Shown: positions 1,002 through 11,767 of the stretch, piece after piece
How positions within the stretch are numbered: position 1 is the first letter of the stretch
How the letters are laid out: each line of letters starts with the position of its first letter
NCBI GenBank assembly: GCA_017547265.1
Contig: JAFYQC010000240.1
Coordinates: 1 to 12,155 of the forward strand
Direction: 5' to 3'
Length of the DNA stretch: 12,155 nucleotides
Origin: Kiritimatiellia bacterium
GTDB taxonomy: Bacteria > Verrucomicrobiota > Kiritimatiellia > RFP12 > UBA1067
The notes under the pieces: model-generated
What the model was told of the DNA's origin: nothing
What the model saw: only the letters and a program-made list of their open reading frames with translations
The model's database searches: none
Position numbers and translations under genes: made by a program

Positions 1002-2330
1002 ATGGATGCGACAGCGAGAAAACCTGGGAAACTGCGACGCTGGCTGCTTTGGTCGGCCGTTGTCATCGTTGTCGCGATTGTTGTTTTTGTCCTCTCGATC
1101 CCCTTCCTCCTGACGCACATACCGATCCCTCCGCTTGAATTCGACCTGTCTCCCTACCTCAAGGGCAAGGCGGCGGAACTCGTCACCTGCAAGAAGGCAA
1201 CGGCAAACGTCAAAATCGAGCGGGACAGGACGGAGGGATTCCGAATCCACGCCAATGGCAAGCTGCTCGACTGGCCCTATAGCGCCTCGGCGCACGTTCG
1301 ATTCGGCTTCGTCCGCGCAGACGGAAGCCTCGCACTGATGCTCGACGAAACCGACTGGAAGGCCTACGTCGACTTTGGCGCGCACTCCACGCGCAACTGG
1401 CATTTCACCGCAAACATTCCAGAAACGCATGTCACCCAGGACAACGCGGTTCTCGCGTCGATTCTCGCAAAGGCAATGCCACCCGCAATCTCTAACCTCG
1501 TCTTCTCTGGGAAATTCAAGCTCGACGCAGGCGGTGACTGCACGCCAAAGCGTCCCGTTCCCGCATGGACGGTGCGCGGCACACTTGCCGACTTCGATGC
1601 GGATCTCGAAGTCGGTGGAAAGCCGGCGCACATCGACGGACTGAAAGTGCGCTTCGGCGCGGACGGAATCGCCGACCATCGCGACATTGCGCCCCTCTTC
1701 CCGCGCGCGAACGCGGTGGAGTTTGCTGGCTTTACGCTCTCCAACGTCTTCGCAAGCGTCCGCGCGACGGAACGGTCGTATCTCGTCACCGAAGCGGGAG
1801 CGGACTGCTGCGGAGGGGAACTTAAGCTATACTCGCTCTTCCTCGACCCAGAAAAGCTGACGGCGGGGGCAACGATCCTTGTCGACGGCGTGGACGCGGG
1901 CGAGGTACTTTCGCGCATATCGGCCTTTCGCGGCGACGCGTCGGGACGACTTCACGGCAAGCTGCCGTTCTTCCTCAAGGACGGCAAGACGCTCCGGCTA
2001 AAGAACGCCTACCTCTTTTCAAAGCCAGGCGAGACAGGAACGGTGCGTGTAACGGATGCGGCGCCAATCCTCGACAACCTCGAGCGCGGCGGCGTAGACG
2101 AAAGCACTCGCAACAATCTCGAAAAAGCGCTTGCGAACCTCGACTACAAAGTCCTCAAAGTCGAACTCATGCGCGGGAAAGACGCCGAGGACTCTTCGCT
2201 CGGCTTCAAGCTAGAGGGAACGGCGACGCATGGGAATACGACAGTTCCCGTGAACCTCAACGTCACCTTTCACGGAGACCTCGACCAGCTTATAAACACA
2301 GGAATGAAACTAAGGAGACAGACAAGATGA
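1002..2330 (+). CDS. ydbH: YdbH-like membrane-anchored intermembrane protein, short form
   Basis: The 442-residue product has a basic N-terminus (KLRRW), one transmembrane helix at about 14-37, then a long beta-rich periplasmic region. The C-terminal third resembles the conserved end of YdbH (AsmA-like family): a GRLHGKLPF segment near 316-324, a variable strand region, ALANLDYKVLKVEL at about 376-389 and PVNLNVTFHGDLDQL near the end. In E. coli YdbH spans the periplasm and contacts the lipoprotein YnbE, and the pair is implicated in phospholipid transport to the outer membrane. The adjacent YnbE/YdbL-like gene, overlapping by 4 bp (ATGA), strongly supports this reading. E. coli YdbH is about 880 residues, so this is roughly half length. 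The frame is open upstream into ruvB, but ATG 1002 directly precedes the basic-TM anchor and lies after the ruvB stop; no clear Shine-Dalgarno sequence is visible. An unrelated AsmA-like or DUF protein is the main alternative. Confidence 0.75.
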   Translation: MDATARKPGKLRRWLLWSAVVIVVAIVVFVLSIPFLLTHIPIPPLEFDLSPYLKGKAAELVTCKKATANVKIERDRTEGFRIHANGKLLDWPYSASAHVRFGFVRADGSLALMLDETDWKAYVDFGAHSTRNWHFTANIPETHVTQDNAVLASILAKAMPPAISNLVFSGKFKLDAGGDCTPKRPVPAWTVRGTLADFDADLEVGGKPAHIDGLKVRFGADGIADHRDIAPLFPRANAVEFAGFTLSNVFASVRATERSYLVTEAGADCCGGELKLYSLFLDPEKLTAGATILVDGVDAGEVLSRISAFRGDASGRLHGKLPFFLKDGKTLRLKNAYLFSKPGETGTVRVTDAAPILDNLERGGVDESTRNNLEKALANLDYKVLKVELMRGKDAEDSSLGFKLEGTATHGNTTVPVNLNVTFHGDLDQLINTGMKLRRQTR

Positions 2331-2776
2331 AAGCAGAACTCGCCCTTGCCGCGACTGCGGCGCTTTGCATCGCGGGAGGATGTATCCAGGTTAAGACCGA
2401 AAGCGAGATCAAGCCCATCCACATCACGATGGACGTGAACCTCAAGGTCGACAAGGATCTCGACAAGGCGTTTGCCGACGAGAACCAGCAAAAGCCCAAG
2501 GGCGACTTCAAGGCGGTCAAGGAGATGGTCGACAGGCAGGCGGCCGGCATCACGAACCGCGCGATGCTCGAGGAACGCACCGGCGCGACAGACGACGACC
2601 GCATCTTGATTGCAGAAGAAAACGCCAAGCGCATGAAACGATTCAGGGATGTCGCGAAGGACAACGGTACGACGATCGAGACCGTCCAGAAGCGCTACGC
2701 CGTAAAGATGCAAGAGAAGATCCCCGCCGGCGCCTGGTACCAGGACGACTCTGGCAAGTGGCTGCAAAAAAAGTAG
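2327..2776 (+). CDS. ydbL: Lipoprotein combining YnbE-like and YdbL-like (DUF1318) modules
   Basis: This 149-residue lipoprotein has a short signal sequence ending in a lipobox (AGGC, Cys19). Residues 19-46 look like YnbE: acylated Cys, a short charged stretch, then KPIHITMDVNLKVDKDLD, matching the family pattern of KPI.I.M.V....D. After a polar linker (about 47-60), residues 61-149 look like YdbL/DUF1318: a helical stretch with an ENAKRMKRFRDVAKDNG segment, IETVQKRYAVKMQEKIPAGAW, and the characteristic end SGKWLQKK. In E. coli YnbE and YdbL are separate genes in ydbH-ynbE-ydbL; YnbE is an outer-membrane lipoprotein that pairs with YdbH, and YdbL is periplasmic and affects that pairing. Here both appear in one chain, which would tether the YdbL part to the membrane. 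The start overlaps the ydbH stop (ATGA), with AAGGAG at 2312-2317, nine bases upstream. The residue after the lipid Cys is Ile, not the Asp of inner-membrane retention, which agrees with outer-membrane sorting under E. coli rules. Confidence 0.8.
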   Translation: MKAELALAATAALCIAGGCIQVKTESEIKPIHITMDVNLKVDKDLDKAFADENQQKPKGDFKAVKEMVDRQAAGITNRAMLEERTGATDDDRILIAEENAKRMKRFRDVAKDNGTTIETVQKRYAVKMQEKIPAGAWYQDDSGKWLQKK

Positions 2777-4531: not shown

Positions 4532-5539
4532 TTATTCCCACTCGATCGTTGCCGGGGGCTTCGGGGTGATATCCCAGACGACGCGGTTCGCGCCCTTTAC
4601 CTTGGTGGCGATCTTCTCTGCGACCTTGGTCACGAACTTGAACGGAAGCTCGACGATGCCTGCCTTGACGAACTGCTGGGTCGAGATCGCGCGGATGGCG
4701 ATCACGTAGCCGAACGTACGCGCACCGTTCTTGACGCCGACGGACTTGACGTTCGTGTTGATCGCGAAGAACTGCTGGGCCTTCTTGTCGAGACCTGCCT
4801 TGTGCATCTCGTCGCGGAAGATGAAGTCGGCCTGGCGGAGAATGTCGAGCTTCTCCTTCGTGAGCTCGCCGATGCAGCGGACCGCGAGACCGGGGCCGGG
4901 GAACGGCTGGCGCATGACCATCTCGTCGGGAAGCCCAAGGAGCTTGCCGACCTTGCGGACCTCGTCCTTGTAGAGGTACTTGACGGGCTCGACGAGGCCC
5001 TTGAAGAGAATGTCCTTGGGAAGGCCGCCGACATTGTGATGGGCCTTCACCGCCTTGTGACCGCCGACGCCCGACTCGATGATGTCGGGATAGATCGTGC
5101 CCTGGCCGAGGAACTCGATGTTGCCATACTTCTTCTGGAGGTCGCGAGCCGTGTCGGCGAAGACCTTGATGAACTCGCCGCCGATGATCTTGCGCTTCTT
5201 CTCAGGATCCGTCTCGCCCTTCGCCTTGTCGAGGAAGCGCTTCTCGCAGTCGAGCGCGATGAGGTTGACGCCGAACTGGCCCTTGAAGACCTTCTTGATG
5301 ATCTTGCCCTCGTTCAGGCGCATGCAGCCGTGGTCGACGAAGACGCAGACGAGCTGCTTGCCGATGGCCTTGTAGAGGAGCGCCGCGCAGACGGACGAGT
5401 CAACGCCGCCGGAAAGCGCGAGCAGGACCTTCTTATCGCCGACCTGCTTCTTGATCGCCTCGATCTCTTCCTTGATGTACTTCTTCGCGTTGAAGGTCTT
5501 GCCGACGCGGGCAAGGCGCTCTTTCTCTGCCTGGTTCAT
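4532..5539 (-). CDS. guaA: GMP synthetase, ATP-pyrophosphatase and dimerisation domains only
   Basis: The enzyme adenylates XMP and aminates it to GMP. The 335 residues carry the PP-loop SGGVDSS at 43-49, VDHGCMRLNEG at about 68-78, LGQGTIYPDIIES at 144-156, HHNVGGLP at 167-174, RQPFPGPGLAVR at 210-221 and the canonical C-terminus KPPATIEWE. Usual bacterial GuaA is about 515-525 residues with an N-terminal class I glutamine amidotransferase (Cys-His-Glu); that domain is absent. The start is ATG 5539, preceded by AAGGAG at 5545-5550 with 5-base spacing. The open frame continues upstream to 5701, but those residues are in the rmlB region and look non-coding. Archaea have this layout with a separate GATase subunit; no such subunit is visible nearby. 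The protein either uses a GATase encoded elsewhere or free ammonia. The upstream neighbour rmlB ends 31 bp away, so co-transcription is likely. Confidence 0.96.
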   Translation of the reverse strand: MNQAEKERLARVGKTFNAKKYIKEEIEAIKKQVGDKKVLLALSGGVDSSVCAALLYKAIGKQLVCVFVDHGCMRLNEGKIIKKVFKGQFGVNLIALDCEKRFLDKAKGETDPEKKRKIIGGEFIKVFADTARDLQKKYGNIEFLGQGTIYPDIIESGVGGHKAVKAHHNVGGLPKDILFKGLVEPVKYLYKDEVRKVGKLLGLPDEMVMRQPFPGPGLAVRCIGELTKEKLDILRQADFIFRDEMHKAGLDKKAQQFFAINTNVKSVGVKNGARTFGYVIAIRAISTQQFVKAGIVELPFKFVTKVAEKIATKVKGANRVVWDITPKPPATIEWE

Positions 5540-5544
5540 GTTTT

Positions 5545-5550
5545 CTCCTT
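5545..5550 (-). promoter_or_regulatory. Shine-Dalgarno sequence for guaA
   Basis: AAGGAG lies five bases before ATG 5539. It decides the start and with it the conclusion that the protein has no amidotransferase domain. Confidence 0.85.
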
Positions 5551-5570
5551 TATGCGTTAAACTTTGGATT

Positions 5571-6629
5571 TCAAGCTTTCCCCAACCGCTGCCCTGCGTA
5601 CTTCTTCTCGTGGATGGGCTTCCACCACCACTCGTTGTCGAGGTACCATTGCACCGTCTTGCGGATGCCGGTCTCGAAGTTCTCCTCGGGCTTCCAGCCA
5701 AGCTCGTTCATAAGCTTCGCCGGGTCGATCGCATAACGGAGGTCGTGCCCAGGGCGGTCGGCTACATAGGTGATAAGGTCAGAATAATGGGACAGCTGGG
5801 ACGAATGGGACGTCTGGGACAATGGACGCAACTCGTCGAGAATCGCGCAGACGGTCTTGACGACTTCGAGGTTCGTGCGCTCGTTGTGGCCGCCGACGTT
5901 GTATGTCTCGCCGGGAACGCCCTTAGCGTTCACGAGGCAAAGCGCCTTAACATGGTCGTCAACATAGAGCCAGTCGCGCACGTTCGCGCCCTTCCCGTAC
6001 ACAGGGAGCGGCTTTCCGTCGAGGCAGTTCAGGATGATAAGCGGGATGAGCTTCTCGGGGAAGTGATAAGGCCCGTAGTTGTTCGAGCAGTTGGTGATCA
6101 GGACCGGCATGCCGTACGTGTCGTGCCACGCGCGGACGAGGTGGTCGCTCGACGCCTTCGACGCGGAATAGGGCGAATGGGGCGAATAGGGGGTCTTCTC
6201 GGTGAAGAAGCCGTCATCGCCGAGAGTGCCGTAGACTTCGTCGGTCGAGATATGCTGGAAGACGAAATTCGGATTCGTGCGCCACCTCTTGAGCGCCGCC
6301 TGGAGAAGCGTCGCCGTGCCGACGACGTTCGTGCGGACAAACTCTCCGGGGCCGTCTATCGAACGGTCCACGTGCGACTCCGCGGCAAGGTGGAAAATCG
6401 TGTCGGGCTTGAACTCCTCGAACGCGCGATCCATCGCCGCCTGGTCGCAGATATCCTCGACAAGAAGCTTGTACTTCCCTTCGACTTCCTTCAGCGACTC
6501 GACGTTGCCAGCATAAGTAAGCTTGTCTATGACGAGGACATCGCGTCCCTCGCGGCAGAGATGGCGAACGAGGGCGGAGCCGATGAAGCCACACCCTCCC
6601 GTGACGATACAGCGACGACTATTCCTCAT
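5571..6629 (-). CDS. rmlB: dTDP-glucose 4,6-dehydratase
   Basis: RmlB converts dTDP-glucose to dTDP-4-keto-6-deoxyglucose, a precursor of rhamnose and other deoxysugars of surface polysaccharides. The 352-residue extended SDR protein shows the NAD-binding TGGCGFIG at 10-17, ISTDEVYG with the Thr-Asp-Glu catalytic trio at 129-131, YSASK (Tyr154, Lys158), [15 protein letters not shown] near 183-197, [13 protein letters not shown] at 290-302 and WYLDNEWWW near the C-terminus. Residues 271-282, just before the conserved [12 protein letters not shown], are a Ser/Gln/His stretch encoded by a 9-bp repeat and look like an insertion. ATG 6629 is chosen because GAGGAG (6637-6642) sits seven bases upstream; ATG 6644 is a weaker alternative. 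The start overlaps the end of the Wzc-like gene by 11 bp. RmlA, RmlC and RmlD are not in the window. Confidence 0.97.
5785..5820 (-). repeat. 9-bp tandem repeat inside rmlB
   Basis: Four consecutive units on the coding strand begin GTCCCA and differ in the last three bases, alternating as GTCCCAGAC, GTCCCATTC, GTCCCAGCT, GTCCCATTA. The result is an in-frame Ser-Gln/His-X peptide repeat ([12 protein letters not shown]). It lies between LDELRP and [12 protein letters not shown], positions that are close together in RmlB proteins as I recall them, so the array seems to have added about 10-12 residues to a surface loop. Confidence 0.85.
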
Positions 6630-9075
6630 CGGCAAGCTCCTCATGTACAAGTTTGCGCCTCGAGCCCGTTTCGGGCTCTCCCTTACCAACCTGCGCCGGC
6701 TTCCCTTCGGCGTCCTTGGCCTTTGCGGCTTCCGCGCCCTTCTTCGGTCTGTAGCCGTAGCCATAGCCGTACCCGTAGCCGCCGTACCCGTAGCCGTAGT
6801 GGCGATGTGACGTCGGATCGAACACGGACACGTTCGAAACCTCGACGTCGTTGACGACAACGCCGAGTATGTTCGCCCCGGCCTCAGTGAGACTCCTTGA
6901 GCAGTACTGGATGGGCCTAAAGTGCGTGCGGTCGGGGCAGCACATGATGATGACGGAATCCACATGCGCCGCGAGCGAGACGACGTCGCCCACGATGCCG
7001 TACGGCGGCGCGTCGACCACTACGCGGTCGTAGTTGGCGCGAGCCCACTCGAAGAAGTCGGTTACCGCTGCGGAGCCAAATATCGTAGCGGGAGAGACAC
7101 CTTCTGGAGGAAGCGAGCAGATGACATCGAGACCAGGAACAACAGACTTGTTTACGAGCTTCGCGAAGTCCGGCTTTTCGCCGCCATTCGCCGACTGCAG
7201 GACATGCGAGAAACTCCTGTCCTGGGTCAGCTCGAGCCCCCAGATCTTGGCGAGACGCGGACGCCTAAGGTCGAAGTCGACGTGAAGCACCTTCTTGCCA
7301 GTCTGCGCGTGGGATATCGCGATTGAGGTCGACGTAATCGTCTTGCCCTCGCCAGGCTGGGTCGAGATGACGAGGAGGCAGTGCGTAAAGGCCTCATAGC
7401 GCGGCGAATCGAGGAGGTTCCTAAGGCCCGCGACGGCCTCGGAGAACTGGGAGTACTTGTCCTCAATGAGGAAGCGCGCGACCTGCTCACGGCGCTTGCG
7501 GCGGACATGCGGAAATACGGCCAGGACCTTAAGGGCGAGACGGCCCTCGATGTCGGAGAGATTCACGACCGTGTCCTCGAGATTGTCTATGACGAGCACG
7601 AACAGGAACCCGAGGCCGAGCGAGAGCACGACGCCAATGCCGAAGATGATTATCGGATTGGGGAGAACGGGCTTTGTAGGCACCGTCGCCTGGCGAGCCA
7701 CGCGGACGATTTCGTTGTTCGCCTCGGACTGGATGCGCATCTTGTTCTCCTCGAGGATGAGACTCTCGAGAAGGCGATGGGCGACGCCGTATTCCGCCTC
7801 GAGCTTGCCAAGACCAGACTCCGCGAAGACGATCTGCTGTTCGACGGAGGCGAGGTCGTTCCTTAGCTCTGACTGCTTCTGCTTGAGGTTTGCAAGCTGG
7901 TTCCGGACGACCTGCAGCGTCGAACGGCCGGTCAGGAGAGCGCGCGAGCTCGCATCAAGGAACCTCTGGCGAGCAAAGTCGAGCTCCTTCTTCTTGGCGA
8001 CGACCTCGGGATGGTTCTCGGTGTAGGAGACGAGAAGGTTCTGGTAGGCACCAGACGCGTCCTGGAAGGCGCGATACTCCTTGGCGATCTCCTCGGCGCG
8101 CGGAACGCCCGAGGCCAGCGAGCCAAATGTCTCGGGATCCTTCTGCACCTCGGTGAGGAGCTTCTCCCATTCGGTCAGCTGGGTCTCCTGGGTCTCGAGG
8201 GCGAGAATGTCGGCGGTCGTCTTGGAAAGCCCCTGGGAGATCGTATCGCGAGAGGAGCGCAGGTTGTCGACCTTGTGGGTCGTGCGGAAGTCGAGCAGCT
8301 GCTTTGTGATCTTGTCGACGTCGCGGCGCTTCTTCTCGACGTTCTCGTGCGTCTGGCTGACGGCCTTGTCGCAACGAACCTTGTTTTCCTCGTCGGTGTA
8401 CGCCTCGATTGACTCGGCGTAGGCATTCGCGAGAGCCGCGGCAAGCTGGGCGGACTTGGAGCGGACGGCAATGGTGATGATTCGAGAGTTGCGCTGGAGC
8501 TCGAGCTTCGAGTCAACGAGAGTCGCAACGATGTCGTCGTCGGAGACGGTCGAGGCGGGGTTGCTCGTCCTGTACTGCTGCTGGATCATCAGCACGATCT
8601 TCTCGGAACGCCAGTCGGAGATTCGCGTGTTGAAGATTTCGGCGTAGTTAGCGCCGAAGTCCGGCATCGACTCGTCGAGGGCGCTTGAAGTGCCGCGCGT
8701 GACGCGCCTCATGTCGATGGTAAACTCGCTCTTCGCCTCGTAGATCGTCGGCGAGATGCGGTAAACCGCGAACGAGACAATCAAACCGACGAGAAGAAAC
8801 ACGAACACCGATAGCCAGCGTTGCGAGACGACCCTGAGCATGCGGCTCATCGTGACAGTGCCGACGATCGAGCCGTCTTCGCCCTCGCCGCCATAACCGC
8901 CATAGGAACCATAGGAACCGTAGGAGCCATATGCGCCATAGGCTCCGCCATACTTGGGGCCGCCTCCATAATACATTGGTCCCTGTCCACCGCCATAATA
9001 CATCGGGCCCTTGCCGCCGTAGTACATCGGCCCAGCAGCCTTCGTGCTTCCGTAATAGAGGGGTTTGTCCGCCAT
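6619..9075 (-). CDS. wzc: Wzc-like polysaccharide co-polymerase and tyrosine autokinase
   Basis: The 818-residue inner-membrane protein has the Wzz plus bacterial tyrosine kinase layout. Order: cytoplasmic Tyr/Gly-rich tail 1-63; Wzz domain with TM1 at about 88-105; periplasmic coiled-coil region about 230-455; a proline motif ([10 protein letters not shown], 465-474) leading into TM2 at about 475-496; kinase domain from about 535, with Walker [10 protein letters not shown] (571-579), Walker A' VDFDLRRP (599-606) and Walker B VVVDAPP (685-691). A C-terminal Tyr cluster at 760-775 has eight tyrosines, followed by a 43-residue charged tail. Such proteins set chain length and drive export through cycles of Tyr autophosphorylation. 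The N-terminal tail, with 15 tyrosines in the first 61 residues including three PMYYGG units, is not a usual part of the family. ATG 9075 has GGAG nine bases upstream and lies 3 bp after the upstream stop. The 3' end overlaps rmlB. Confidence 0.93.
6637..6642 (-). promoter_or_regulatory. Shine-Dalgarno sequence for rmlB inside the upstream gene
   Basis: GAGGAG is followed by seven bases and then ATG 6629. It lies within the last codons of the Wzc-like gene, implying translation of rmlB from the same message. Confidence 0.8.
6751..6798 (-). repeat. Tyr-Gly repeat encoding the C-terminal phosphorylation cluster
   Basis: A near-perfect 6-bp repeat (TAC/TAT plus GGC-type codons) encodes residues 760-775, alternating Tyr and Gly with one Gly-Gly break. 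Its position downstream of the kinase domain matches the tyrosine cluster of BY-kinases. The simple repeat should be prone to length change by slippage in 6-bp steps, which would keep frame. Confidence 0.85.
8893..9057 (-). repeat. Tyr/Gly-rich repeats encoding the N-terminal tail of the Wzc-like protein
   Basis: Residues 7-61 consist of three PMYYGG-type units separated by short Gly/Lys/Gln linkers, followed by AYG/SYG triplet repeats (9-bp units). The segment ends about 25 residues before TM1, so it should be cytoplasmic like the kinase domain. Confidence 0.85.
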
Positions 9076-9078
9076 GTC

Positions 9079-10524
9079 TTATTTCTCCGTCAAAGAGTCG
9101 TCGTCAGTCTTTTTAGGCGCCGGGAAGGCGCTGCCGGCCATCGCAAGCATGGCCGCCGTCAGCATCATCGTCTCGGAACGCCAGAAGGAATGGTCGTAGA
9201 ACCCACACGCAGCTACGACTATGAGCGCAATCGGCCCAAGCGCGCAGGCGGGATGGAAGATAAGCGCACCAAAGCTATGGCGCGACTTGGAAAGAATGTC
9301 TGCAACGGCATGGAACGCACGGAACGCATACGTCCACAGGAGAAAGAGCAACGGGGCCAAGAAAAACACGACTCCGGTTATCCCGCGCTCCGCGAGCATC
9401 TGCATCCACCCATTGAGCGCGCCTGCCTGGTTGGAGGCGAAAATAGCCCAGTCAGCCTCCTTGGCGTTAAACCGAATGTCAAATCCAAAGGTGCCAAGTC
9501 CGGTGCCGAGCCATGGATTGTCCTTCCAGACTTTCTCGGCCACCTCAGAGAGCGCCGACCTAAGCGCAAGAATACCGTCGGGAAGGAGCTGCGAGCCCTC
9601 TTCGCCGAAGAAAATAGCCAGCTTCTGGGCCTTGATTCCCTCAGGCACAACGCCCATCACGAAAAGAATGGGGAGAACCGATGCCACGAGTAGGAACGCG
9701 AGGCACTTCGGAACGACGAGACCGCCCATGCGACGATGGGCATACGCAAGTGCACACGCCATCACGACTACCGCGCAGGCGGCGTATGCCAGTATCACAA
9801 TGTCGGGCGAGAAGAGATAGAGACCTATGGCAGAACCGCCAACCGCAATGGCAAGCAGCGGCATAGCGCGGTTCCACTTGCGTTCGAACGCACCGGCTAT
9901 GGCGACCATCGAGCCCATGAAGCAAAGCCCGAAAGCCGTTCCTGGATATGTGGCGTCAACGGTTGAACACGCTGCGTAGCGCAGAGCCACGGGGTTTTCA
10001 AATACGCACGCAAGAGCAGCGACGACCGCCGCTACGCCGGCGAGAAAGGCGGCAATAAAGAGAAAGCATACGCGCGCAGACTTTCCCAGCGCATGGCGAC
10101 CCGCCTGCATTAGGACCGCCACGCCCACTACGGAAGCGAACGGGAGATAGCCGCTACCGTCTACACTGCCAGGAAGGAAAGAAAATATCGCGTCGGAGAG
10201 ACTCCACACTGCCTTTTCGGCATCATACGACATTCCAATGCCGACATTTAGCCATCTGATGCCCGCAACCAGGACGAGAACTAGCGAAAACCAGAATAGC
10301 GGGTCGAGAACTATGGAGGACGCTACGCGAAAGCGGGCGTCATGCAACGTCTCGTCCACGCGGCGCGATGGCTCGAGAACCGTCCAGGCCAACGCAAAAA
10401 GCGCGAGCCATATGACCGTCCTCGCCGTCCATGTGTCGTCGCAAAACGGGAAAAGGAACAGCGGCGCAACCGCCAGCAAGGCAAGGTGCGCCGCCAGGCC
10501 GTACTTGGATATGGCCTTCTGCAC
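9079..10524 (-). CDS. O-antigen ligase/polymerase-like membrane protein (WaaL/Wzy family)
   Basis: This 481-residue protein is mostly hydrophobic, with roughly ten or more membrane segments. The family signature lies in the large loop near the C-terminus: Arg322, then WKDNPWLGTGLGTFGF (333-348) and AGALNGWMQMLAERGITG (367-384). It matches the Wzy_C/O-antigen-ligase pattern of Arg, a PxLGxGxGxF box and HNxxLQxLAExG followed by membrane helices. Such proteins join or polymerise lipid-linked glycans on the periplasmic face; ligase and polymerase cannot be told apart from sequence. The position normally holding the conserved His of the HN box appears to be Leu370. The start is GTG 10524, one base after the upstream stop (TGA, 10528-10526), with no clear Shine-Dalgarno sequence, suggesting re-initiation after the barrel gene. 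The C-terminus is a short charged tail (KKTDDDSLTEK). Confidence 0.85.
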   Translation of the reverse strand: MQKAISKYGLAAHLALLAVAPLFLFPFCDDTWTARTVIWLALFALAWTVLEPSRRVDETLHDARFRVASSIVLDPLFWFSLVLVLVAGIRWLNVGIGMSYDAEKAVWSLSDAIFSFLPGSVDGSGYLPFASVVGVAVLMQAGRHALGKSARVCFLFIAAFLAGVAAVVAALACVFENPVALRYAACSTVDATYPGTAFGLCFMGSMVAIAGAFERKWNRAMPLLAIAVGGSAIGLYLFSPDIVILAYAACAVVVMACALAYAHRRMGGLVVPKCLAFLLVASVLPILFVMGVVPEGIKAQKLAIFFGEEGSQLLPDGILALRSALSEVAEKVWKDNPWLGTGLGTFGFDIRFNAKEADWAIFASNQAGALNGWMQMLAERGITGVVFFLAPLLFLLWTYAFRAFHAVADILSKSRHSFGALIFHPACALGPIALIVVAACGFYDHSFWRSETMMLTAAMLAMAGSAFPAPKKTDDDSLTEK

Positions 10525-10525
10525 T

Positions 10526-11767
10526 TCAGTACGTCAGGCGCATACCGACCGTGCCGCGGAAGCGGTCGTAATCGTAGTTGTGCCCGCGGACATCACCGCC
10601 GTCGCACATGTCAGTCTGGTACTCAAGCCTTCCATAGATCTGGAGGAAGCGGTTGAGCGTGTAGTTCAGGCCGAGACGGGCAGTGATGATGTCGTCGTCG
10701 TAGTCGTAGCCGCGCGTGTAGGAGTACTCGTGCGTCTCACGACGGTAGTTGAGGTCGAACGTGGCGTTGAGCTTGCCGCGGATCATCGAGTGGGCAACAC
10801 CCCAGCTGATGGAGTCGACGCGGATGGCGCTGCACATCTCGCGCTCTGAGGGCTGATAGTAGCTCGCGGCGAGGAGCATCATGTTCCACGTGTCCGTGAT
10901 CTTCCACTTGCCCGAGACCTGGTAGGTCCAGCCGTCGATGTCGTCGGCATCGCCATCTGCATACTCGAAGCGGCTCCAGCCAGTCAAGATGCGGTACTCG
11001 ATCTTCTCGGTCGCACGCGTTCCAAAGCCAGCCATGACGGTCCAACCGCGGGATTCGTCGGAGTAGCGGACATTGTTCGGAACATTGTCCTGCCAGTACC
11101 AGCCGTAGTTGGCTGCGAGAAGGAAGTCAGTCCACTTCGAAGCGGCATAGCCGATCTCGCCACCGGCAAGCGCACGCTTCCAGCCATAGAGCGGCGCATA
11201 ATCTTTGACGTTGTTTTCGTAGTCAAGCATGTAGTAGGAGGCGTCAATGGCCGCATGGAGATGCTCGTTAATGCGACGCTCGATGATGCCAGCCGCCTGG
11301 AACGTCTTGCGGTCGCGGCCAATGCCCCTGCCGCTATGGTCGGACATGTCGTCGTCCTGGGCAATCTGAGTGAAGCTCTCAGTAAGGAGGACGCTCCAGC
11401 CCTTCTCGTTCGCGAGCGAGTCAGCCCACTTGAACGAGAGGTTCTCGCCGAAGCTGGACTCGTTGAGCTGGTTGCTGTAGCGGTTGTAGGCGTGATACCT
11501 GTACCACGCGCGGCCGGCGATTTCCCAGTTGTCGCCCTTGTATTCCGCGCCGAGACCGGGATTGACAACCCATGTCGAGCCATCCTTCGCATGTTTTGCG
11601 GAATCAACATTTGAGTCGTATGTGTACGAAAGCGACACATACGGACGGAGCGTCATGCGCTCTCCGATCTTGAAGCCACTGGGCCTGTCGACAACGTCAG
11701 CGGACACAGTCAGAACCGATGCAGACACGACCATCGCCGTGGCAAAAGCTGAAAACTTAGCATTCAT
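10526..11767 (-). CDS. Outer-membrane beta-barrel protein, EpsL/putative beta-barrel porin 2-like
   Basis: The 413-residue protein has a signal peptide (about 1-23, cleavage after VSA) and then alternating aromatic-polar strands. The start of the mature part, LRPYVSLSYTYDSNV (40-54) followed by WVVNPGLGAEYKGDNWEI, resembles the BBP2/EpsL-type barrels of exopolysaccharide loci. The C-terminus (GTVGMRLTY) ends in an aromatic residue, as expected for BAM-dependent insertion. Aromatic residues are abundant throughout (for example AWYRYHAYNRY near 87-97). The location directly upstream of the Wzy/WaaL-like and Wzc-like genes suggests a role in polysaccharide passage across the outer membrane, which is inferred from context. 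ATG 11767 is preceded by GGAGGT at 11775-11780, the strongest ribosome binding site in the window. The upstream gene ends 48 bp away. Confidence 0.85.
   Translation of the reverse strand: MNAKFSAFATAMVVSASVLTVSADVVDRPSGFKIGERMTLRPYVSLSYTYDSNVDSAKHAKDGSTWVVNPGLGAEYKGDNWEIAGRAWYRYHAYNRYSNQLNESSFGENLSFKWADSLANEKGWSVLLTESFTQIAQDDDMSDHSGRGIGRDRKTFQAAGIIERRINEHLHAAIDASYYMLDYENNVKDYAPLYGWKRALAGGEIGYAASKWTDFLLAANYGWYWQDNVPNNVRYSDESRGWTVMAGFGTRATEKIEYRILTGWSRFEYADGDADDIDGWTYQVSGKWKITDTWNMMLLAASYYQPSEREMCSAIRVDSISWGVAHSMIRGKLNATFDLNYRRETHEYSYTRGYDYDDDIITARLGLNYTLNRFLQIYGRLEYQTDMCDGGDVRGHNYDYDRFRGTVGMRLTY

Follow-up and report, generated by a model that had tools for sequence, protein, structure and literature searches.

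YnbE-like and YdbL modules joined in one lipoprotein beside a YdbH-like gene in a Kiritimatiellia bacterium

A single lipoprotein of 149 residues, encoded directly behind a YdbH-like gene in DNA from a Kiritimatiellia bacterium, carries a YnbE-like segment and a YdbL domain, which in Escherichia coli belong to two separate gene products. The whole stretch of DNA that was analysed, 12,155 nucleotides in length, is called the window here. The fused arrangement is a new variation on a known system, and it is recurrent rather than exceptional. An earlier note on this DNA had recognized that one lipoprotein next to a YdbH-like gene combines a YnbE and a YdbL module, which is borne out by Pfam matches, by relatives that possess the two as separate genes and by a neighbour matching PF11739; its view of the fusion as exceptional did not hold, since the fusion recurs across relatives and lipoproteins of comparable build are common elsewhere.

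Excerpts of the literature on E. coli describe YdbH as interacting with the outer-membrane lipoprotein YnbE (PMC12977461) and YnbE as working with YdbH in phospholipid transport (PMC11784454), and mention the proposal that the YdbH C-terminus and YnbE are linked by strand augmentation (PMC12045153). The window resembles the E. coli ydbH-ynbE-ydbL locus, which encodes an intermembrane bridge of YdbH and YnbE along with YdbL, in gene order, in a 4-nt overlap of ydbH with the following gene, in the apparent identities of the modules, in the lipoprotein nature of the YnbE part and in the YdbL fold. It differs in that YnbE and YdbL form one chain, that YdbL is membrane-anchored and has no signal peptide of its own, that the YdbH protein has 442 residues instead of 879, and that the strand region misses a 6-residue stretch of E. 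coli YnbE. Kumar, Davis and Ruiz are said to have proposed, in PNAS in 2024, that YdbL limits YnbE multimerisation. To our knowledge, no part of the YdbH route is less settled than what YdbL does.

The fused gene and its YdbH-like neighbour

The features of the locus, with the basis of each in brackets, are:

1002..2330, + strand: YdbH-like AsmA-family protein, 442 aa, short form (PF11739, AF2)
1026..1118, + strand: N-terminal membrane helix of that protein, residues 9-39 (AF2 secondary structure, hydrophobic segment in the sequence)
2238..2276, + strand: its last predicted beta strand, residues 413-425, the putative docking edge for the YnbE strand (AF2)
2327..2330, + strand: ATGA in which ydbH stop and lipoprotein start overlap (sequence)
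2327..2776, + strand: fused YnbE-YdbL lipoprotein gene, 149 aa (sequence, Pfam, homologues)
2327..2383, + strand: lipoprotein signal peptide and lipobox CIAGGC with Cys19, codon 2381-2383 (sequence)
2411..2482, + strand: YnbE-like module, residues 29-52, comprising the KPIHITMDVNL strand segment and the next segment (sub-threshold PF13617, hhalign, separate gene in L046-L064)
2483..2509, + strand: linker, residues 53-61 (AF2 pLDDT of 77 for residues 51-60)
2510..2773, + strand: YdbL/DUF1318 domain, residues 62-149

The open reading frame agrees exactly with the 149-residue lipoprotein that the earlier note had placed at 2327-2776, with Cys19 as lipobox cysteine, KPIHITMDVNLKVDKDLD at residues 29-46 and SGKWLQKK at the C-terminus. 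The residue after Cys19 is Ile, not Asp, and Asp occupies this position in none of 63 fused relatives (the degenerate forms described below included) and in none of 66 separate relatives. The overlap with the ydbH stop recurs identically in 34 of the 47 fused loci that have a YdbH neighbour, counted after removal of identical proteins and of L026. No trace of a second signal peptide was found ahead of the YdbL domain in the window sequence, where residues 53-61 form the linker; for comparison, most separate YdbL reading frames of relatives do show a signal peptide. The domain is thus the C-terminal part of a lipoprotein, not a stand-alone soluble YdbL of the E. coli type with its own signal peptide.

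With 1227 protein clusters matching at E <= 1e-3, the lipoprotein is more than a chance reading frame. In comparisons with four relatives (L001, L003, L004 and L012), dN is 0 and dS 0.12–0.25 over the 33 codons of the YnbE part (residues 20-52), and dN is 0.02–0.11 and dS 0.5–0.98 over the DUF1318 part; because dN lies far under dS in both parts, the frame evolves as a protein, and the YnbE segment is its most constrained stretch. In the AF2 monomer, residues 33-48 are predicted as helix and no preformed strand is present, mean pLDDT being 65 at residues 31-40 and confidence high at 41-50.

The upstream protein matches PF11739 (YdbH) at 51.6 bits, above the cut-off of 26.3, over profile positions 621-877 of 893 only, that is, the C-terminal third; NF007971, the NCBIfam equivalog for E. 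coli-type YdbH, gives 15.3 bits against a cut-off of 824. A length of 442 residues against roughly 880, together with this low equivalog score, leads us to call it a YdbH-like short form, and in NCBIfam no match near its cut-off was found for either the lipoprotein or the YdbH-like protein. The AF2 model (pLDDT 83.6) has a helix at residues 9-39, and the last strand of its beta-rich body is 413-425; no PDB entry matches the model at E <= 1e-3, the VIA rows being barrels, apoB and a TOC-complex chain. At half the E. coli length, the protein may be unable to span the periplasm alone.

YdbH frame lengths, which are upper bounds measured from the first start codon, are usually 401–534 aa in the window's clade: among fused loci L001-L037, 32 of 34 uncut frames fall in this range and two have 733 and 871 aa. 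Separate loci L046-L064 have uncut frames of 683–1073 aa. A tie between fusion and YdbH shortening was considered and rejected, as 13 other fused loci have YdbH frames of 699–997 aa, and 17 of 50 uncut frames at separate loci have at most 608 aa (16 of 49 genes, two 608-aa frames being one gene counted twice). In six genomes of remoter fused relatives (L038-L042, L103), no YdbH was found beside the fused gene, and PF11739 locates one elsewhere, so that the pair is kept even when unlinked; no PF11739 match was found in three of the 15 genomes searched, one with a clear fused protein (G206) and two with the degenerate form (G048, G078).

Three further regions of the window, all on the minus strand, may be recorded. 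A frame at 4535-5557 encodes the ATP-pyrophosphatase and C-terminal part of GMP synthase (PF00958) without a glutamine amidotransferase domain, a make-up that we take to be that of two-subunit GMP synthetases. A Wzc-like chain-length regulator or tyrosine-kinase-like protein with Gly-Tyr-rich repeats at both ends lies at 6622-9075 (Pfam AAA_31 match; GNVR below cut-off). At 9082-11767, an O-antigen ligase-like protein (Wzy_C) adjoins a beta-barrel protein (BBP2_2), and these genes, with the dehydratase at 5574-6650, are apparently part of a polysaccharide cluster.

Identity of the two halves

The earlier note had proposed a profile search of both halves, and the outcome was divided. DUF1318 (PF07027) matches residues 67-148 at 54.2 bits, twice its cut-off of 27, and the domain has the YdbL fold; PF07027 is likewise found at E <= 0.1 in all 79 rows of alignment A1. 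The YnbE model PF13617 (Lipoprotein_19) matches residues 29-52 at 15.4 bits, under its cut-off of 25.8, and the segment is therefore called YnbE-like and not filed as a PF13617 member; E. coli YnbE itself scores 59.3 bits. The E-value of 0.016 refers to a scan of all 24,736 Pfam models and would be about 1e-6, by our arithmetic, for one family named beforehand; with the first 62 residues alone it is 0.0032.

The same weak signal extends to relatives. At E <= 0.1, PF13617 is found in 48 of the 79 rows of A1 and in 22 of 66 separate YnbE-like lipoproteins, the next family reaching 3 of 66 in the separate set and an aldo-keto reductase model matching weakly in 26 of 79 rows of A1. The lowest E-values reached, 0.003 and 0.0014, imply that every member of the two sets lies below the PF13617 cut-off. 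No protein exceeds the cut-off in six genomes searched, scores for the window, L050 and L062 being below it as well, and L047, L115, L121, L169 and L184 give no match at E <= 0.1. By hhalign, the segment falls on E. coli YnbE in the register expected; 23 columns are aligned at 39% identity with one 6-residue gap, at a probability of 36.9%. When a lineage profile was set against E. coli YnbE with 20,000 shuffles there was no separation, the top scores being those of shuffled copies, and since this test failed, the YnbE claim rests on the sub-threshold Pfam match, on gene position and on the separate relatives.

Gene position is that of YnbE: the lipoprotein signal with its cysteine lies shortly ahead of a PITINMNV-type segment, here beginning at residue 29, and the gene directly follows the ydbH frame at 1002-2330. 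The separate relatives are more telling. In all 19 of loci L046-L064, a near-identical segment (for example CLSIKTEHEIKPIHITMDVNLKVQKELENFLDLD) is a short lipoprotein gene of its own, directly followed by a separate DUF1318 gene. These loci, mostly from Kiritimatiellae, Verrucomicrobia and Lentisphaerae with two from Phycisphaerae, share with the window the KPIHITMD segment, the downstream YdbL and, in 15 of 19, a YdbH-like frame just upstream (two of these being only pieces at a contig end); they differ in having two genes and the longer YdbH frames given above. This genetic evidence is decisive for the YnbE half, direct sequence evidence being weak but consistent; YnbE identity of the N-terminal segment is strongly supported. 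In five loci (L047, L050, L059, L060 and L062) the separate pair overlaps by 4 nt, so that a small deletion or frameshift could easily fuse the genes.

Recurrence of the fused state

Homologues of the window lipoprotein occur in Kiritimatiellae and in neighbouring metagenome-assembled genomes. Of 65 homologous loci, the fused state is seen in L001-L045 and the separate one in L046-L064; a contig end truncates L065. The earlier note had called for a wider survey of genomes, and in a Verrucomicrobiota sample of 194 genomes the same fusion was found in 16 of the 77 with a DUF1318 match. Classification covered 76 of these: besides the 16 fused, 7 are degenerate, 48 separate, one separate with an extra copy and 4 other; the 77th (G030) has an unconfirmed sub-threshold DUF1318 match and was not classified. 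The degenerate group (group e: L120, L122, L130 and others), a DUF1318 lipoprotein with a degenerate strand, was assigned by eye; it is counted apart in this survey and labelled fused in both trees and in alignment A1. Four genomes (G048, G060, G078 and G158) have two DUF1318 lipoproteins each, one of TPEPVKINVNM type and one of YDVNxSxxVK type. The frames upstream of L120 and L152 (P0244 and P0245) are large, with an N-terminal hydrophobic segment, and look AsmA-like by eye, no Pfam family matching them at E <= 1; they overlap the degenerate lipoprotein genes, that of L152 by 4 nt.

A careful tree of the YdbL domain alone, with 67 rows chosen from 142 (32 fused, including group e, and 35 separate), needs five changes of state, and starred branches force at least three of these. 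A single change is seen in none of 200 bootstrap trees (5–95% range 5–5), and an AU test rejects one fused clade (p 0.0055). A quick tree of all 142 rows has four changes among labelled rows (five when fused is set against all others), three of them forced. All 42 rows of the window's clade, starred in the quick tree, are fused; its sisters L047 and L050, both separate, carry a star in the quick tree and are weakly placed in the careful one, and L043-L045 are fused within an otherwise separate Kiritimatiellae clade in both. The trees rest on 98–99 columns only and state changes cannot tell gain from loss, so our reading of them as gains relies on separate genes being the wider state; on that reading, the data suggest that the same joining arose several times. 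Module order is YnbE then YdbL in every fused case read, and the window's clade is without a second signal peptide. No relative was found in viral contigs, and the titles and abstract openings of the literature searched hold no mention of a YnbE-YdbL or DUF1318 fusion, though Kumar, Davis and Ruiz 2024 might contain one.

Beyond the phylum, 28 of 199 Planctomycetota genomes hold 30 DUF1318 matches, which our profiles sort into 13 separate, none fused and 17 unassigned. Fourteen of the 17 were inspected in full, and 11 are lipoproteins by eye, in most of which DUF1318 is preceded by a VTINVNF-like strand and a helix-like stretch. Six of the 13 unassigned loci whose upstream frames were tested follow a YdbH-like frame (E between 2e-11 and 7.5e-4, the set of frames being small), four of them encoding lipoproteins (L206, L210, L214, L224) and two non-lipoprotein forms (L209, L213). 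The DUF1318 lipoproteins L206, L210, L214, L215, L216, L220, L223-L227 and P0246-P0365, which mostly begin with a VTINVYF-type strand and a helix-like stretch, may represent another, older composite of this sort. A profile from seven Planctomycetota lipoproteins matches 210 proteins; among the best 120, 115 have a lipobox pattern in the first 40 residues, the other five being lipoprotein-like by eye, and 108 fit a rough strand pattern that was devised after examples had been viewed. Among the matches listed are gammaproteobacterial proteins, from Thiohalobacter and Thiogranum for example, that bear the name 'YdbL family protein'. These long CVTINVYFP-type lipoproteins share with the window the lipobox, a strand-like then helix-like N-terminus and a C-terminal DUF1318, and L206, L210, L214 and L224 also the position after a YdbH-like frame, whereas their N-terminus is undetected by the YnbE-like profile used, their linker is longer and their length is about 174–237 aa among the 120 matches listed. 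Their N-terminus, which may or may not descend from YnbE, is at least an analogous architecture.

Enterobacterial fused entries are rare, with at least eight (P0124-P0131, 1–4 members each) at the top of 685 matches, of which the best 120 were listed. Like the window protein, seven of the eight hold both Pfam domains in one chain (P0128 has PF07027 only); unlike it, P0124-P0128 retain all or part of the YdbL signal peptide and P0129 and P0130 are damaged joins, leaving P0131 as the sole clean enterobacterial join without that signal peptide.

A possible part in the YdbH bridge

Since the YnbE and YdbL parts are covalently joined, membrane anchoring of YdbL and a 1:1 ratio, both foreseen in the earlier note, follow for the translated chain unless it is cut after secretion. 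We think it rather probable that the fused protein is a part of a YdbH-YnbE bridge that carries the proposed chaperone YdbL in cis. The product of the window gene would then form the end, at the outer membrane, of a short lipid-transfer bridge of the YdbH type. Sorting in E. coli sends lipoproteins without Asp after the cysteine to the outer membrane, and under that rule lipidated Cys19 would bring the chain there. By analogy with E. coli, the YnbE-like strand (approximately residues 29-39) would dock on the last YdbH-like strand by beta augmentation and lengthen the lipid groove, the chain running from lipid anchor through groove-lengthening strand, helix and a linker of about nine residues to YdbL. 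The tethered YdbL, which by the same analogy would limit YnbE multimerisation, could act in cis as chaperone or edge cap, keeping other YnbE strands from pairing with the exposed one. Chaperoning within one chain, a YdbL domain touching the YnbE strand (a contact not seen in the monomer model) and an outer-membrane placement in this lineage are steps that we infer only; the earlier note's proposals that YdbL acts directly at the bridge, and of the residues that touch, are likewise predictions.

A rather unlikely alternative, though the strongest of those considered, is that YdbL, instead of acting as a chaperone, sits permanently where the assembled bridge ends at the outer membrane, as a structural cap or hand-off module kept there by fusion. 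A transient chaperone has no need to stay, and fusion fixes YdbL at the bridge in several lineages, lipid-anchored DUF1318 proteins being frequent; against this, YdbL is a product of its own in E. coli, in 49 of the 76 genomes classified and in 13 of the 30 matches from planctomycetes, and its database names are chaperone-like (PDB 28oj included), though a name is no test. That fusion serves fixed dosage and co-secretion only, with independent modules that make no contact, appears improbable: the 4-nt overlaps of separate genes make joining easy and the enterobacterial joins are sporadic, but several independent joins of long divergence, YnbE then YdbL in each fused case read, suggest selection for proximity, and the window's clade has no second signal peptide. 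A generic lipoprotein tether unrelated to YnbE would accord with the sub-threshold PF13617 scores and the failed profile test, yet is very hard to credit for a segment that is the most constrained of the gene, aligns with E. coli YnbE in the expected register and has its own lipoprotein gene before ydbL in 19 of 19 separate loci.

Of the fused protein as a bridge part with YdbL in cis there is also a wider form, tentative and on the whole doubtful, in which anchor, bridge-extending strand and YdbL in one chain are a general outer-membrane end of YdbH bridges in several phyla. If so, each YnbE strand in the bridge would have one YdbL as a lasting, stoichiometric component, E. coli with its free YdbL would stand at just one end of a range, and the recurrence of fusion would point to YdbL as a cap, acting in cis, on a strand that polymerises without it. 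The phospholipid route to the outer membrane is an open question. Repeated joining of YnbE and YdbL is evolutionary evidence, independent of E. coli genetics, that both act as a unit, and the natural fusions are ready single-chain reagents with which to ask if YdbL is a cap for the YnbE strand or remains part of the bridge.
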